Assembly (NCBI GenBank): GCA_016927285.1
Contig: JAFGMZ010000033.1
Coordinates: 1 to 46,686 of the forward strand
Length of the DNA stretch: 46,686 bases
From: Chlorobiaceae bacterium
GTDB lineage: Bacteria > Bacteroidota > Chlorobiia > Chlorobiales > Chlorobiaceae
Reading direction: 5' to 3'
The notes beneath the pieces were generated by a model. That model saw nothing but the letters and a program-made list of their open reading frames with translations. It did no database searches and was not told the DNA's origin. Position 1 is the stretch's first letter; each line of letters begins with the position of its first letter. The translations under genes and the position numbers were made by a program. Below, in pieces: positions 24,385 through 30,746 of this stretch.

Positions 24385-25505
24385 TTGCAGTAATAGATAA
24401 AGCGTTCCTTGAGTTTCATGATCCGCTGATAGGAGCGGTCGATACGATTTTTGCTTATTGAGCCCTCTCGGACCAGGCGATGCAGAATCGAAGAGGCTTT
24501 ATCAGCTATAGCCGGATCATAGGCCGTGTTGTTTCCGAAAAGCAGAATATCCACGCCAGCCTGTACGGCAAGCCGGATCGACTCATCAAGTCCGTAATGG
24601 CCGGCAATGGCTTGCATCTGCATGTCATCGCTCAGAATAACCCCTTCAAAACGGAGTTGATTGCGAAGCTTCAGGTCAAGCGTTTTTTTCGAAAGGGTTG
24701 CGGGGTGGCGGCTGTCAAGCCGACGGTTGAATACGTGTGCGGTCATGATGGCATCGTCGTAACCGGCATCGATCATTGCCCGGTAGGGTTCAAGTTCTTT
24801 TTCGGTCCAGCGTACGGTAACATCAGTGAAATCCTTATGGGTGTCGGTCGTCGAACTGCCGTGTCCGGGAAAGTGCTTGAATACGGGAATGACTCCCTCT
24901 TCTCTGAATACCGCTGCCGTCAGCAGGGCGTGTTTCGTTACAACTGCCGGGTCGGCAGAGTAACTGCGCCCAAGTCTGCCGATGACCGGATTGTCAGGAT
25001 TGGTATTCAGGTCGAGCACCGGGGCGAGGTTCATGTTTATGCAGCCGGCTCTCATTGTAAGGGCGTTTTTTCGGGCAGCAGCGATCGTGCTGTCAGGATT
25101 GTCGAGATTGCCGAGATGCAGCGCCGAGACAGTGCGCGGAAATCCTTTCGATGCCTTAAGCCGGTTAACTTTGCCGCCTTCCTGATCAATTGCGATGAAG
25201 AGCGGGATATCGGAGATCCCCTGAAGTCCGACGGTAAGCTTTCCAAGCTGTTCCGGATTTGCGATGTTTCGTACAGGCGACTTCATGGGAACATCGTAGT
25301 CGAACAGCACAATGCCGCCGATATGGTGTTTGCGTATATCCTCAACGATTTCAGGAGCGTCTTCGATGGCGAGTCCTCGGAAGCCGATCATGAGCATCTG
25401 ACCGATTTTTATCGATAGGCTGTCAGCTCCCTGGCCGGCATAGACGTGCCGGCCAGGGAGGAGCATGACGAGCAGCAGTGCGGCAAGAACAGGTTTTGTT
25501 ATCAC
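24381..25505 (-). CDS. nagZ: glycoside hydrolase family 3 beta-N-acetylhexosaminidase (NagZ-like)
   Basis: Removes N-acetylglucosamine from peptidoglycan fragments. The 374-residue protein has [25 protein letters not shown], the NagZ signature [14 protein letters not shown] (about 210-223, with the acid/base His/Asp pair) and the nucleophile Asp in [13 protein letters not shown]. The N-terminus carries a signal-like stretch (hydrophobic about 5-17, ending near VYAG), so unlike cytosolic E. coli NagZ this one may act in the periplasm. It overlaps clpB upstream and sixA downstream by 4 nt each. Confidence 0.92.
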
Positions 25506-26830
25506 GCTTCTCCCGCAGTTACAGCGATCCGCATTTCGCCTTCCGACAGATCGATCGATACGCCGTCTCCTTCCTGAACTGAACCGGAGAGAATCATTTC
25601 TGACAGCTTATTGGTGATTTTTCGCTGCAAGACGCGTTTGAGCGGTCGCGCTCCGAAAACCGGATCGAATCCTGCATTTGCAAGCCAGTCGAGTGCCTCC
25701 GGAGTGATCTCCATTGCTATGCGCTGACGCATGGCAGTGGCTCTGATGCGATCGAACTGCACCTGTACGATATGACGCAGGTCTTCTCTCGACAGCGGGG
25801 TAAACAGGATGATTTCATCGATTCTGTTCAGGAATTCGGGACGGACCTGTTGTTTCAGTAAAAGAAACAGCTTGTCGTGCAGTCCGGCGAGCACCGAGTC
25901 ACGATCCATGCCGTCAATTTTTTCCATTTCCGACTGGATCAGGTGGGCTCCGATATTGCTCGTCATGATGATGATGGTGTTCTTGAAGTTCACCGTATGA
26001 CCTTTGCTGTCGGTCAGCCTTCCGTCATCGAGAATCTGAAGCAGGATGTTGAATACATCCGGATGCGCTTTTTCTATTTCGTCGAGCAAAACAACCGAAA
26101 ACGGCTTGCGTCTTACTGCTTCAGTGAGCTGCCCCCCCTCTTCGTAGCCGACATAGCCGGGAGGAGCCCCAACCAGGCGACTGACATTGTGAGACTCCAT
26201 GTATTCGCTCATGTCGATACGGATAAGAGCGTCTTCGTCATCGAAAAGATATTCGGCAAGGGTACGGGCAAGTTCGGTTTTTCCGACGCCGGTCGGGCCG
26301 AGAAAGATAAAGGAACCGATAGGCCGCTTTTCGTCTCCCATGCCTGCTCGGGATCGTTTTACCGCCTCGCTGACCGCGCTGACAGCCTCGTGCTGTCCGA
26401 TTACCCGTTTGTGCAGCTCATCCTCTATGCCGAGCAGCTTCTGCCTTTCAGACTGAAGCATCTTGCTGACCGGAATACCGGTCCAGCGTGAGACGATGTC
26501 GGCAATATCTTCAGCGTCTATTTCTTCTTTCATGATAAGGTCGCCTGCAGCTTGTTTTTCTTCTATTTTTTTGCGGTTTTCCTCGATCTGGCGTTCGATG
26601 CGAGCAATGCGGCCATAACGGATTTCGGCTACTTTACCGTAGTCGCCCTGCCGTTCATGTTCTTCAGCCTGGACTCTTAGCTGTTCGAGTTCCGACTTCA
26701 GGTCCCGTGATGCACTGATCAGTTCTTTTTCACTGTCCCACTGGGCTTTTATACGAGTCTGTTCCTCGACAAGCCCGGCAAGCTGTTTTTCGATTTCCTG
26801 CAGTCGCAGTTTTGTATCGGCGGTACTCAT
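25502..26830 (-). CDS. clpB: ClpB C-terminal half (M domain remainder plus AAA2), split chaperone
   Basis: Corresponds to the second half of the ClpB disaggregase, which works with DnaK to pull apart protein aggregates. The 442-residue protein starts with a coiled coil (about 5-100) matching the later part of the M domain, then [11 protein letters not shown], Walker [12 protein letters not shown] (about 179-189), the pore loop [13 protein letters not shown], Walker [14 protein letters not shown] and sensor-2 [11 protein letters not shown]. The N-domain, NBD1 and first M-domain helix are absent, and the 128 nt upstream contain no remnant of them. The ORF is intact, so this is probably a genuine split protein whose NBD1 partner is encoded elsewhere, rather than a pseudogene. 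First gene of clpB-nagZ-sixA. Confidence 0.9.
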
Positions 26831-26958: not shown

Positions 26959-27789
26959 GTGCAAAAGTTCTCCATCGGCACTATTGGCCTACCCGGGGCA
27001 GGATCGCTTTTTTTTATTGCTGGTCCATGCGTTATCGAAAGCCGGGATATGGCGTTTGCCGTAGCCGGGGAGTTGCAGCGCATTTCCTTAGCTGAAGGAG
27101 TGCCTTTCATTTTCAAGGGTTCGTATCGCAAGGCAAACCGATCATCGGCAACATCCTTTACCGGTATTGGCGACGAAGAAGCTCTTGGTGTGCTTGCAGA
27201 GATCAGGGAGCGTTTCGGCATGCCGGTACTGACCGATGTGCATGAGGTTGCCGAGGTTGAGCGTGCTGCGCCATTTGTCGATGTGCTCCAGATCCCGGCT
27301 TTTCTCTCTCGCCAGACGGAGCTGCTTGCCGCCGCCGGGCGGAGCGGCCGGGCAGTCAATATCAAGAAAGGACAGTTTATGGCTCCCGGCGACATGGCGC
27401 TTGCCGCGGCCAAGGTTGCCGGTACCGGTAACAGCCGCATCATGTTGACGGAACGGGGTTCAAGTTTTGGCTATCATAACTTAGTGGTGGATTTTCGGGG
27501 TATCCCGCAAATGGCCGAAACCGGTTATCCTGTAGTCTACGATGCAACTCACAGCCTGCAGCTTCCCGGTGCGGGCAACGGTGTTTCCGGAGGCGAGCGA
27601 CAATTCCTGCTCCCTCTCGCACGAGCTGCCGTCGCGGCCGGGGTGAACGGTCTTTTTTTTGAAGTGCACCCGGATCCGGCGTCGGCGCTTTCCGATGCGG
27701 CGACCCAGATAGCTCTCGGAGATTTTGCAGGAGTCGTCAATGAGCTGCAGCAGCTTTCCAGATGCGTGCAGTCTATCCATTCACGTTAA
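26959..27789 (+). CDS. kdsA: 3-deoxy-8-phosphooctulonate (Kdo-8-P) synthase
   Basis: Condenses phosphoenolpyruvate with arabinose-5-phosphate to Kdo-8-phosphate, a precursor of the LPS inner core. The 276-residue sequence has [69 protein letters not shown] and [14 protein letters not shown]. The Cys in AGPCVIES, where E. coli-type enzymes carry Asn, points to the metal-dependent class. It starts with GTG at 26959. The KdsC-like gene follows after 15 nt. Confidence 0.95.
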
Positions 27790-27804: not shown

Positions 27805-28377
27805 TTGTCAGGTTTTCAGTATTTCGGCATGGAGCCTTCGCTGGCCGACCCCTCCTCCAGGATACAGCAGGCGCTGCTGGCGGTCAGGGCTGTCATATTT
27901 CCCGTTGATGGCGTATTGAACGGTCCTCGAATTACCTTCGACAGTCATGGTGGAGAAATCGTCTCCATTTCCAACCGTGACGCTTCGGCGATCAGGGCGG
28001 CGATCGATCAGGGACTGCATGTTGCCGCACTCTCCTCCCGGGATGCAGGCGGGTTCAGACCGGTGCTCGAAGCGCTCGGCGTGAGAAATATCTATCTCGG
28101 GGCATCGAGTCTTCTCGATGCTTACGAGGCTTTTTGTCGGGAGCGCGGTCTCGACGACGAAGCATGCGCCTATATCGGCGATGACATTGTCGATGTTCCC
28201 GTACTTGAACGGGCAGGTTTTCCCGTCACCCCGATCGATGGTGCGGATTATCTCAGGAACCGGGTGGGATATATTTCAGCATACGAAGGAGGGAAAGGGT
28301 GTATTCGGGAAGTTGTGGAGATGGTGCTGCAGCAGCAGGGAAAGCTTGCATTTGGCGATCAGGCAGCTGAGCCTTAG
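27805..28377 (+). CDS. KdsC-like HAD protein lacking the catalytic aspartate
   Basis: By context and overall sequence this is the KdsC family (Kdo-8-P phosphatase), placed right after kdsA. However, motif I reads IFPVDGVLNGP (residues 31-41), where active enzymes have DVDGVLTDG: the nucleophilic Asp is Pro33. The motif III lysine (SNKL in E. coli) is Leu103. The second motif I Asp (D35), a Ser in motif II (SSRD), GDDIVD (125-130) and the C-terminal GGKGCIREVVEMVL are kept. I therefore expect no phosphatase activity; a structural or regulatory role is possible. The start is TTG at 27805, with AGGAAG 6 nt upstream; ATG at 27829 is the alternative. Confidence 0.82.
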   Translation: MSGFQYFGMEPSLADPSSRIQQALLAVRAVIFPVDGVLNGPRITFDSHGGEIVSISNRDASAIRAAIDQGLHVAALSSRDAGGFRPVLEALGVRNIYLGASSLLDAYEAFCRERGLDDEACAYIGDDIVDVPVLERAGFPVTPIDGADYLRNRVGYISAYEGGKGCIREVVEMVLQQQGKLAFGDQAAEP

Positions 28378-28420: not shown

Positions 28421-29857
28421 TTATTCTGCGAGGTTTTCAGAAAGCGCTGGTCTGTTCAGCAGACGAGCGGTCTCCGCGAGATTGAGCGTTCCTACGATGT
28501 TCGTCCCGTGGTTCGGTTCTATGTGCACATCTCCAAGATACTCTTTACCGGCTCCAAGAGCCTGTTCGAGGGCCTCGATTTTTCCGAAGAGGCTGTATGC
28601 TGCCGATTGCGGGGTAGAGCATGATACCGGCGGGTTGTTTTTACCATGCATAAAATATCCTTCCGGCAGTGCGGCGCTTTCGGGATAGCCGTGCCAATGG
28701 GTCATCGATGCTCCCTTTTTTTCGAGCCTTTCCGAAAAGATCGATCCGGGTTTGAGCACTTTCAGAATGGAGGCGATGAACGCATTGCCAAGCGCATGGG
28801 CAAGTATGGTAAGCGTATCGAACGATGGCCTTGTTGTCGGGCCATCGGGCAGGCCAGGCGAGGTTTTAAGATAGGCGTTTCCCTTTTCAAGGCCGATCTC
28901 GATCAGGTCGGTTTTCAGGTTCAGCTCATGCTTTCGGCATCCTGATCGGGTGGTGAGTACCCGAACATCCGGAACAGGAACGAGCAGGGTATTTCCCGCA
29001 ACCCTGACAGCAATCCATCCGTTTTCTTCATTTCCGGCAACCGTAGCAGGTTTTACCGGAAGAGGGAGTTGTCTTGCAAAAAAACCATAACTCATCCCGC
29101 TGCGCTGATCGAGGTATCGCGCCACTATTTTCCGATAGAAATCATTTCGGTAATCAAGTTCTTCAGTAGAGGTATGGGTAAGCAGAAAGCTGCTCGAAGA
29201 CCAGTTTCGGCTGCATGTGAGAAAGTCATCGGCCGCTTCCATGTACTCGGCAGATGTCACGGAAAGCTCGCCGTGCCGGAAGTCAAAGTCCTCAGGCTTT
29301 GGCGGAACCACCTGGGCCGTTAGTTTCGGAACCAGTGTATTCCGGACATCTTTTCGGGAGGGTAGCGGGGTATTGAAGGTGATTACCCCCCCATTCATGG
29401 TGCAGATGGTCCATGATTCATCTGTTACAAAAACAAGGATGTGCACCATATCTCTTGCAAGGCGCCTGACGATGGCATCGAGCCGCATCTGGGGAAGCGC
29501 ATTTTCATCCAGCGGAGAGGGCTCGTCATAGATTCCGACGATGATGTTATTGTGAAGCGTCGATACCCTGTTAATTGCAAGTTCGTCATCAAGAAAGATA
29601 CCGGGAGCGAGAATGACCGTACCGGGGCTGAACCGTCCGTTAACCAGCGAAGACGGGCTGTAAGATTCTGCCGATACTCCCAGTGAACGCAAGGCCTGCA
29701 TAAGCGACAGAGAGAATCGTTCGAGCCGTCCTGTTATCGTTTTTGCCGGATAGAGCACGCACCGGAGTTCGGCGCACATCGCACCGAGAGAGAGTGGCGT
29801 CTTTTCGGGTATGCCAAGAATATGGCGGAGGGATGCAGGGCTGACTGGATGACTCAT
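28421..29857 (-). CDS. protein of unknown function in the nadK operon
   Basis: I do not recognise this 478-residue protein. It has no signal peptide or clear membrane segment and looks cytosolic. An N-terminal part (about 15-150) contains LRSLGVSAESYSPSSL and GTVILAPGIFLDDE and could be an alpha/beta fold. A central part includes EYMEAADDFLTCSRNWSSSS, reminiscent of residues that bind small ligands, but this is not diagnostic. The ATG at 29857 (MSHPVSPASL) is preferred because the longer start at 29962 would run into nadK. It lies 31 nt after nadK and is the last gene of ruvX/pyrE-tyrA-nadK. Base composition matches its neighbours, which argues against recent transfer. Confidence 0.85.
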   Translation of the reverse strand: MSHPVSPASLRHILGIPEKTPLSLGAMCAELRCVLYPAKTITGRLERFSLSLMQALRSLGVSAESYSPSSLVNGRFSPGTVILAPGIFLDDELAINRVSTLHNNIIVGIYDEPSPLDENALPQMRLDAIVRRLARDMVHILVFVTDESWTICTMNGGVITFNTPLPSRKDVRNTLVPKLTAQVVPPKPEDFDFRHGELSVTSAEYMEAADDFLTCSRNWSSSSFLLTHTSTEELDYRNDFYRKIVARYLDQRSGMSYGFFARQLPLPVKPATVAGNEENGWIAVRVAGNTLLVPVPDVRVLTTRSGCRKHELNLKTDLIEIGLEKGNAYLKTSPGLPDGPTTRPSFDTLTILAHALGNAFIASILKVLKPGSIFSERLEKKGASMTHWHGYPESAALPEGYFMHGKNNPPVSCSTPQSAAYSLFGKIEALEQALGAGKEYLGDVHIEPNHGTNIVGTLNLAETARLLNRPALSENLAE

Positions 29858-29888
29858 GAAAAAAATCTTGCGTGATGCGTTCAGAGGG

Positions 29889-30746
29889 CTAATGGCCGGA
29901 GTCGTATTCACGTCCCCAGAGCAGTTTTGTGCGCAGGATTTCACAATAATCGCGGCTTTCATTGGCGACGAGATTGATAAGGGTATCCGATTTTTTTACC
30001 GTTACCATCTCCTGCGGCTGCAGCATTTTTGTTATTCTTCCGTCGCAGTTCAGGGGGAACTCACCGATTTGCGCATCGACGGATACCTCGATGATTTTCT
30101 CGTCGCTGATGACGATCGGCCTGACTGTCAGCATATGCGGACAGATAGGGGTGATGACGAACACGCAGGATTTCGGTGCGATAATCGGTCCCCCGGCCGA
30201 CATCGAATAGGCGGTTGACCCTGTCGAGGTCGCGATGATGATGCCGTCTGCCCGGTATGAACCGAGCAGTTCTCCGTCAAGACGGATAACGAAAGTAGGT
30301 ATCCGCGGGTAGGTTCCTTTTTCGATCACTACGTCGTTCAGCGCGCGAAGCCGCCGTTCGCTGCCGTTGATCATCGTAACAGCTTCAAGCTGTGATCGAT
30401 GGTGGATCGAGTATGTGCCTTCAATAACAGCGTTCACGACAGGGATCATCTCTTCCTGACTGAACTCGGTGAGGAACCCGAGATGACCGACGTTGATGCC
30501 GATAACCGGTTTCGTATCGGAATAGTGCGAGGCCAAAAGGAGCGTCCCGTCTCCGCCGAGTGAAATAACGACATCGCACAGCCTGCTGAGATCATCAATT
30601 TTCGCAGAGGGTCCGATACCGAGTTTTTCAGATGAAAGTGATTCAAGTACATAGCTGGTATTCTGCCGGTCGAGCCAGCTCGTCAGCTCTTTTGCAAGAT
30701 CCAGCGCTTCCATACGCTGCGTGTTGATGACAATGCCGAATTTCAT
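29889..30746 (-). CDS. nadK: NAD kinase
   Basis: Phosphorylates NAD to NADP. The 285-residue protein shows the two diagnostic motifs: [17 protein letters not shown] with the catalytic Asp in GGDGT, and [31 protein letters not shown] is also typical. The start at 30746 overlaps the tyrA stop by 4 nt. It may serve reductant supply for biosynthesis in general; the neighbours are biosynthetic housekeeping genes. Confidence 0.96.

Follow-up and report, generated by a model that had tools for sequence, protein, structure and literature searches.

A putative pseudophosphatase of the KdsC family, conserved across Chlorobia, mostly behind kdsA, and proposed to serve Kdo synthesis as a non-catalytic partner or regulator

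The stretch of DNA analysed here (the window, 46,686 nucleotides from a member of the Chlorobiaceae) carries kdsA and, directly behind it on the same strand, a homologue of KdsC that is referred to as P1. The open reading frame of P1 was confirmed, with a TTG start at 27805, a stop codon ending at 28377 and 190 encoded amino acids. The stop codon of kdsA ends at 27789, and the gap of 15 nt between the two genes agrees with the spacing given in an earlier note on this DNA. The features of the locus are as follows, with the residues of P1 mapped by alignment to E. coli KdsC.

26959–27789, plus strand: kdsA, Kdo-8-P synthase, 276 aa (TIGR01362, 355 bits; cut-off 314)
27805–28377, plus strand: P1, KdsC homologue and probable pseudophosphatase (profile, alignment, AF2 and Foldseek)
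27805–27855, plus strand: conserved N-terminal extension LSGFQYFGMEPSLADPS, with [FML]G[MIV] in 93 of 95 Chlorobia P1 sequences
27901–27903, plus strand: codon 33 (ccc), Pro33 at the HAD nucleophile Asp site (E. coli KdsC D32), from alignments and codon counts
27907–27909, plus strand: codon 35 (gat), Asp35 (E. coli D34), the second Asp of motif I, found in every readable P1 copy
28033–28041, plus strand: motif II, Ser77-Ser78-Arg79 (E. coli T76 corresponds to S77 and R78 to R79); Arg79 is invariant
28111–28113, plus strand: codon 103 (ctt), Leu103 at the motif III Lys site (E. coli K102), from alignment
28177–28194, plus strand: motif IV, G125-D126-D127-I-V-D130, kept (E. coli D125/D126/D129 correspond to D126/D127/D130)

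Two further genes flank the pair on the minus strand. Beside kdsA, positions 25502–26830 hold a stand-alone gene of 442 aa that represents only the C-terminal half of ClpB, matching positions 431–851 of TIGR03346 (the end of the middle domain and NBD2). Open reading frames of 438–441 aa occupy the same place in three other loci (L165, L168 and L170), and from these a free ClpB C-terminal half seems to be conserved in Chlorobia. Convergent with P1, positions 28421–29962 encode a protein of 513 aa for which no Pfam or NCBIfam match was found; L168 and L170 have frames of similar length in the corresponding position.

In HAD phosphatases the phosphate group passes to the first Asp of motif I, and the Lys of motif III holds the phosphate. 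The window P1 reads PVD in place of the DxD of motif I, and so lacks the nucleophile Asp, and Leu103 stands where motif III would have its Lys. Both substitutions had been described in the earlier note, the first from the sequence FPVDG, and the alignment to E. coli KdsC agrees with that reading. The motif II Ser/Thr is present as Ser77, as is the Asp pair of motif IV, D126 and D127 being found in all 62 copies of the window's genus. The same note had described GDDIVD and the C-terminal KdsC block as retained, and its observations proved right on each point that was checked. The P1 alignment shows no variation at Asp35 of motif I, at Arg79, at Asp126 or in the GGxGCxRE block near the C-terminus.

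The family identity of P1 was assessed from profiles, structure prediction and phylogeny. P1 scores 111.3 bits against TIGR01670 (the KdsC/YrbI subfamily; curated cut-off 106.95) and 113.1 bits against the KdsC equivalog model NF007019, which is below the curated cut-off of 208 for that model. Its nearest sequence relatives are the solved KdsC structures, the best being 4hgn (1.2e-28). The AF2 model of P1 (pLDDT 78.6, pTM 0.77) returned as top Foldseek matches the KdsC proteins of E. coli, B. thetaiotaomicron and H. influenzae, with TM of 0.75–0.81 and E of about 1e-15, and the predicted fold is thus the HAD type C0 fold of the solved KdsC enzymes. In the tree, P1 forms a single clade (99/99) that adjoins the KdsC of Bacteroidota, including 4hgn (100/96), a placement which indicates that P1 is a KdsC lineage turned dead. 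On balance P1 would seem to be the former kdsC of a Chlorobia kdsA-kdsC operon, now a pseudophosphatase.

In comparison to KdsC (YrbI, HAD type C0; 2r8e from E. coli, 1j8d from H. influenzae and 4hgn from B. thetaiotaomicron), P1 shares the fold, length and lineage, the Ser and Arg of motif II, the GDD of motif IV, the C-terminal GGxGxxRE block and the place behind kdsA. It differs in having Pro for the nucleophile Asp (P, S, N, T, A or V across the class), Leu for the motif III Lys, and a conserved N-terminal FGM extension that is missing from the single Asp-bearing Chlorobia copy.

The distribution of P1 was followed in a sample of 98 Chlorobia genomes or species, the 98 of the order being identical to the 98 of the class. 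P1 is present in 95 of them. The remaining three (G019, G025 and G066) are also without kdsA, a joint absence that was set aside as trivial evidence since the genes are neighbours. The earlier note had proposed an alignment across Chlorobi, and this gives Pro33 in all 62 P1 copies of the window's genus and a residue other than Asp at the nucleophile site in 93 of the 94 readable Chlorobia copies (P 67, S 17, N 4, T 3, A 1, V 1). The one copy that retains Asp comes from a genome that is 97% complete (G039), and it is also one of the two exceptions to the N-terminal [FML]G[MIV] motif, the other being truncated where its contig stops. A tree was also made from the alignment minus the nucleophile column, with four further Asp-bearing rows as outgroups; on it the nucleophile site has undergone at least 10 changes among its states, and two changes are required between Asp and not-Asp.

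Other catalytic residues have been lost over a narrower range. The motif III site is L, P, F, V or R in the P1 of Chlorobiaceae, Lys being absent from all copies, and Lys is retained in the order's other families. Within one genus (g19) the motif II Ser has become Ala in 14 of 20 copies. In the sister families the nucleophile alone is lost (to N, S, T or V), with Ser, Lys and GDD/GDE retained. A nucleophile lost class-wide, a Lys lost in Chlorobiaceae and a Ser lost in most copies of one genus together indicate that the catalytic parts of P1 were eroded in steps.

The gene itself shows the marks of selection. In the window's genus Pro33 is encoded by all four CCN codons (CCC 20, CCG 35, CCT 5, CCA 2), and its invariance through these synonymous changes argues that selection holds the residue itself, beyond the fold alone. 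The median pairwise dN/dS (Nei-Gojobori, dS 0.1–1.2) is 0.098 for P1, 0.069 for kdsA and 0.102 for an intact paralogue, described below as P2; the pairs are non-independent and these values are descriptive. P1 therefore has the two properties of a pseudoenzyme, an essential residue that is lost and a gene that is conserved and under selection. The suggestion that the protein has been kept for a non-catalytic purpose is supported by these results, with the nucleophile absent class-wide, Pro selected in the genus and dN/dS at about 0.1.

A sequence error, a strain-specific mutation or a decaying pseudogene might be considered, given that the window's genome is a draft (1.93 Mb, 188 contigs, 85.6% complete). 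Independent assemblies from across the class, complete genomes among them, nevertheless agree, the frames are intact with dN/dS near 0.1, and 93 copies lack Asp, so that this explanation has practically no probability left. Some hydrolysis by P1 of Kdo-8-P or another phosphate, through an unusual route that dispenses with Asp at position 33, would find some encouragement in Asp35 of motif I, in Arg79 and in the Asp residues of motif IV, all of them invariant or nearly so. Against it, the HAD mechanism requires the motif I Asp, and the site has changed repeatedly on the tree, between P, S, N, T, A and V, so that no single replacing residue could serve as nucleophile; such a route is improbable. 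P1 is very probably dead as a KdsC phosphatase: with Asp missing, no aspartyl-phosphate intermediate would form and Kdo-8-P should be left unhydrolysed, as predicted from the established HAD mechanism, and the variability of the replacing residue makes another nucleophile at that site unlikely.

The window's genome carries kdsB as well as kdsA, and by this gene content the Kdo route appears to run. The earlier note had suggested looking for a second HAD phosphatase, and one with intact motifs is indeed encoded in the window's genome. This second KdsC-family gene, P2 (G000:C10:423-1010, minus strand), occurs in 93 of the 98 Chlorobia genomes. In the 77 copies read, Asp22, Asp24, Lys92 and Asp115 are each present in all 77, and motif II has Thr or Ser. 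In all the Chlorobia contexts that were read, apart from one (G043) where neuB lies elsewhere, P2 adjoins a neuB-like gene. Its best solved relative is KDN9P phosphatase, with which it has Glu56 and Lys67 in common, the residues mutated in 4hgr according to the title of that entry. The KDN9P phosphatase model NF058599 is the best model for P2 by E-value, and the scores of 144.5 bits (P2 of L158) and 153 bits (L171) lie below its cut-off of 180.

The tree groups P2 on the KDN9P-phosphatase side; P1 and P2 are about 25% identical and are encoded apart. The placements of the two proteins indicate that P2 represents a separate lineage of greater age and did not arise by a recent duplication. The view of P2 as simply a second KdsC was dropped on account of its neuB-like neighbour and its KDN9P phosphatase relatives. 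KDN9P phosphatase (3e8m, NF058599) is accordingly the known system closest to P2, sharing the Glu56/Lys67 positions, the best PDB matches and the neuB linkage, although P2 falls under the model cut-off and is left uncalled by it; P1 belongs to a different lineage. In many Bacteroidota (L159, L161, L171–L173 and L286–L300) a P2-type HAD phosphatase and a NeuB-like synthase stand in a conserved cluster with a transketolase-like protein, a cytidylyltransferase-like protein, a class III aminotransferase, a short-chain dehydrogenase and a membrane protein. Of this cluster the phosphatase-NeuB pair alone is seen in Chlorobiaceae.

P2 is the best candidate for the missing Kdo-8-P phosphatase activity and probably supplies it, a proposal that draws on its motifs and on three patterns of gene presence. 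The sole Chlorobia genome with an Asp-bearing P1 (G039, a single case) is without both P2 and a neuB-like gene. Three families (f33, f5 and f35) have kdsA and a NeuB-linked P2, and no KdsC-lineage gene was found in them by sequence search or, where read, beside kdsA; in several other Bacteroidota families with kdsA, the P2 type is the only KdsC-family protein found. Conversely, three genomes with an intact KdsC of the P1 lineage (G050, G054 and G058) are without the P2-type NeuB. The exchange of P2 for KdsC does not appear to be universal, since one family (f10) has a shortened, Asp-bearing KdsC-like gene beside kdsA though a NeuB-linked P2 is present. The f10 genes behind kdsA (L301–L307, L309 and L310) encode 148–165 aa and keep Asp, Lys and GDD; a stretch after motif I is missing and some have DLE for DLD. 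They were rejected as a second case of a dead KdsC because the nucleophile Asp is retained.

The idea that another phosphatase makes Kdo thus finds support, subject to a reservation. An intact P2 exists and the phylogenetic profile favours it, whereas its neuB linkage and its likeness to KDN9P phosphatase allow that its substrate differs: the NeuB cluster and the Glu56/Lys67 signature suggest that P2 may serve a sugar of its own.

The earlier note had further proposed that P1 holds KdsA. Of the 83 Chlorobiaceae copies of P1, 80 lie no more than 20 nt from kdsA, as do 6 of the 12 other copies, which makes KdsA the first candidate partner. However, kdsA and kdsC are also adjacent in two other genomes (G052 and G060), adjacency appears to be the ancestral order, and as such it is weak evidence for contact. 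Dead P1 is moreover kept in genomes where it lies apart from kdsA: the distance is about 6.5 kb in G037 and in G044, and in G043 the two genes stand on different contigs. A fused KdsA-P1 AlphaFold model, in which the genes were read through as one chain with the kdsA TAA as Gln and a paired alignment, gave no confident arrangement (pTM 0.59, pLDDT 26–36 at the junction and linker); as a model of a single chain, where KdsA and KdsC form tetramers, it speaks neither for nor against contact. A hold on KdsA is a tentative proposal, and direct contact between P1 and KdsA is less likely than not. In one genome (G018, contig C27; L032/L224) kdsA and P1 form one frame of 479 aa. This candidate for a natural, Rosetta-stone fusion was rejected: close to the 3' end of kdsA a run of T is one T too long, which scrambles the KdsA C-terminus, and the frame is probably a frameshift or sequence error.

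A fold that is kept when its chemistry is gone points to binding, and two specific forms of binding can be weighed. P1 could conceivably act as a ligand-binding regulator, its half-kept site sensing Kdo-8-P or Kdo that stays uncut and reporting flux, for example by damping KdsA. The retention of Asp35, Arg79, Asp126 and Asp127 in Chlorobiaceae is consistent with this, and the loss of the nucleophile alone in the sister families is the pattern expected of a binder that does not cut; however, the absence of the motif III Lys in Chlorobiaceae and the change of Ser to Ala in most g19 copies have probably weakened phosphate binding, and this form is rather unlikely. Slightly less probable still is a mixed oligomer in which P1 would be a non-catalytic subunit that shapes the P2 site and shifts it toward Kdo-8-P. 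Phosphatases of the KdsC type (C0) are tetramers in which neighbouring subunits help to cover each active site. The GGxGCxRE block and the region around residues 150–158, within the part that lies at oligomer faces in KdsC, are among the most conserved in P1, and P2, widespread in the class, is missing from the sole genome with an Asp-bearing P1; the low identity of the two proteins and the separate location of their genes speak against such an assembly.

The HAD superfamily has known pseudophosphatases, among them KdsC-like members in animals. In the vertebrate CMP-sialic acid synthetase, no phosphatase activity was found for the C-domain, which serves oligomerisation (PMC8636478, citing Oschlies et al. 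2009). This domain (3ewi) resembles P1 in being a KdsC-like HAD domain tied to a similar sugar-pathway enzyme, but it is fused to the cytidylyltransferase, whereas P1 stands free behind a synthase and its oligomeric role is putative. For the SPP-like domain of plant sucrose-phosphate synthase, a role in substrate channelling through binding of the phosphatase has been proposed (PMC4493782). Like P1, it is phosphatase-like, of the HAD type and associated with a synthase whose product is the substrate of the phosphatase; it differs in belonging to another HAD family and pathway and in being fused, where P1 is separate. By analogy with these two precedents, P1 would most likely act in the Kdo branch through its fold, without catalysis, either as a protein partner, with KdsA as the first candidate, or as a regulator, and its half-kept site may serve to sense Kdo-8-P. 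Taken as a whole, the reading we favour, with moderate confidence, is that P1 is a pseudophosphatase found across the class and retained for a non-catalytic role, as partner or regulator, in Kdo synthesis. Among the open-access papers searched, none dealt with Chlorobium kdsC or with KdsC pseudoenzymes, and none described a KdsC pseudoenzyme that stands free and is conserved throughout a class of bacteria.

Automated annotation names P1 as KdsC, and pathway models of green sulfur bacteria thereby credit Kdo-8-P phosphatase to a protein that is almost certainly without that activity, and misname the likely real enzyme as a phosphatase of the sialic-acid type. It is possible, though we hold it only tentatively, that the class has split Kdo-8-P dephosphorylation, in which case a phosphatase of a nonulosonate pathway would have taken on the chemistry. 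The original KdsC, no longer catalytic, would then be devoted to KdsA or to the new phosphatase, as a subunit or an allosteric regulator, and would control the entry into lipopolysaccharide synthesis. The P1 sequences form a natural series, with Asp intact, a single substitution or several motifs lost, that bears on the question of how an enzyme becomes a kept non-enzyme, here in a pathway on which the outer membrane depends.
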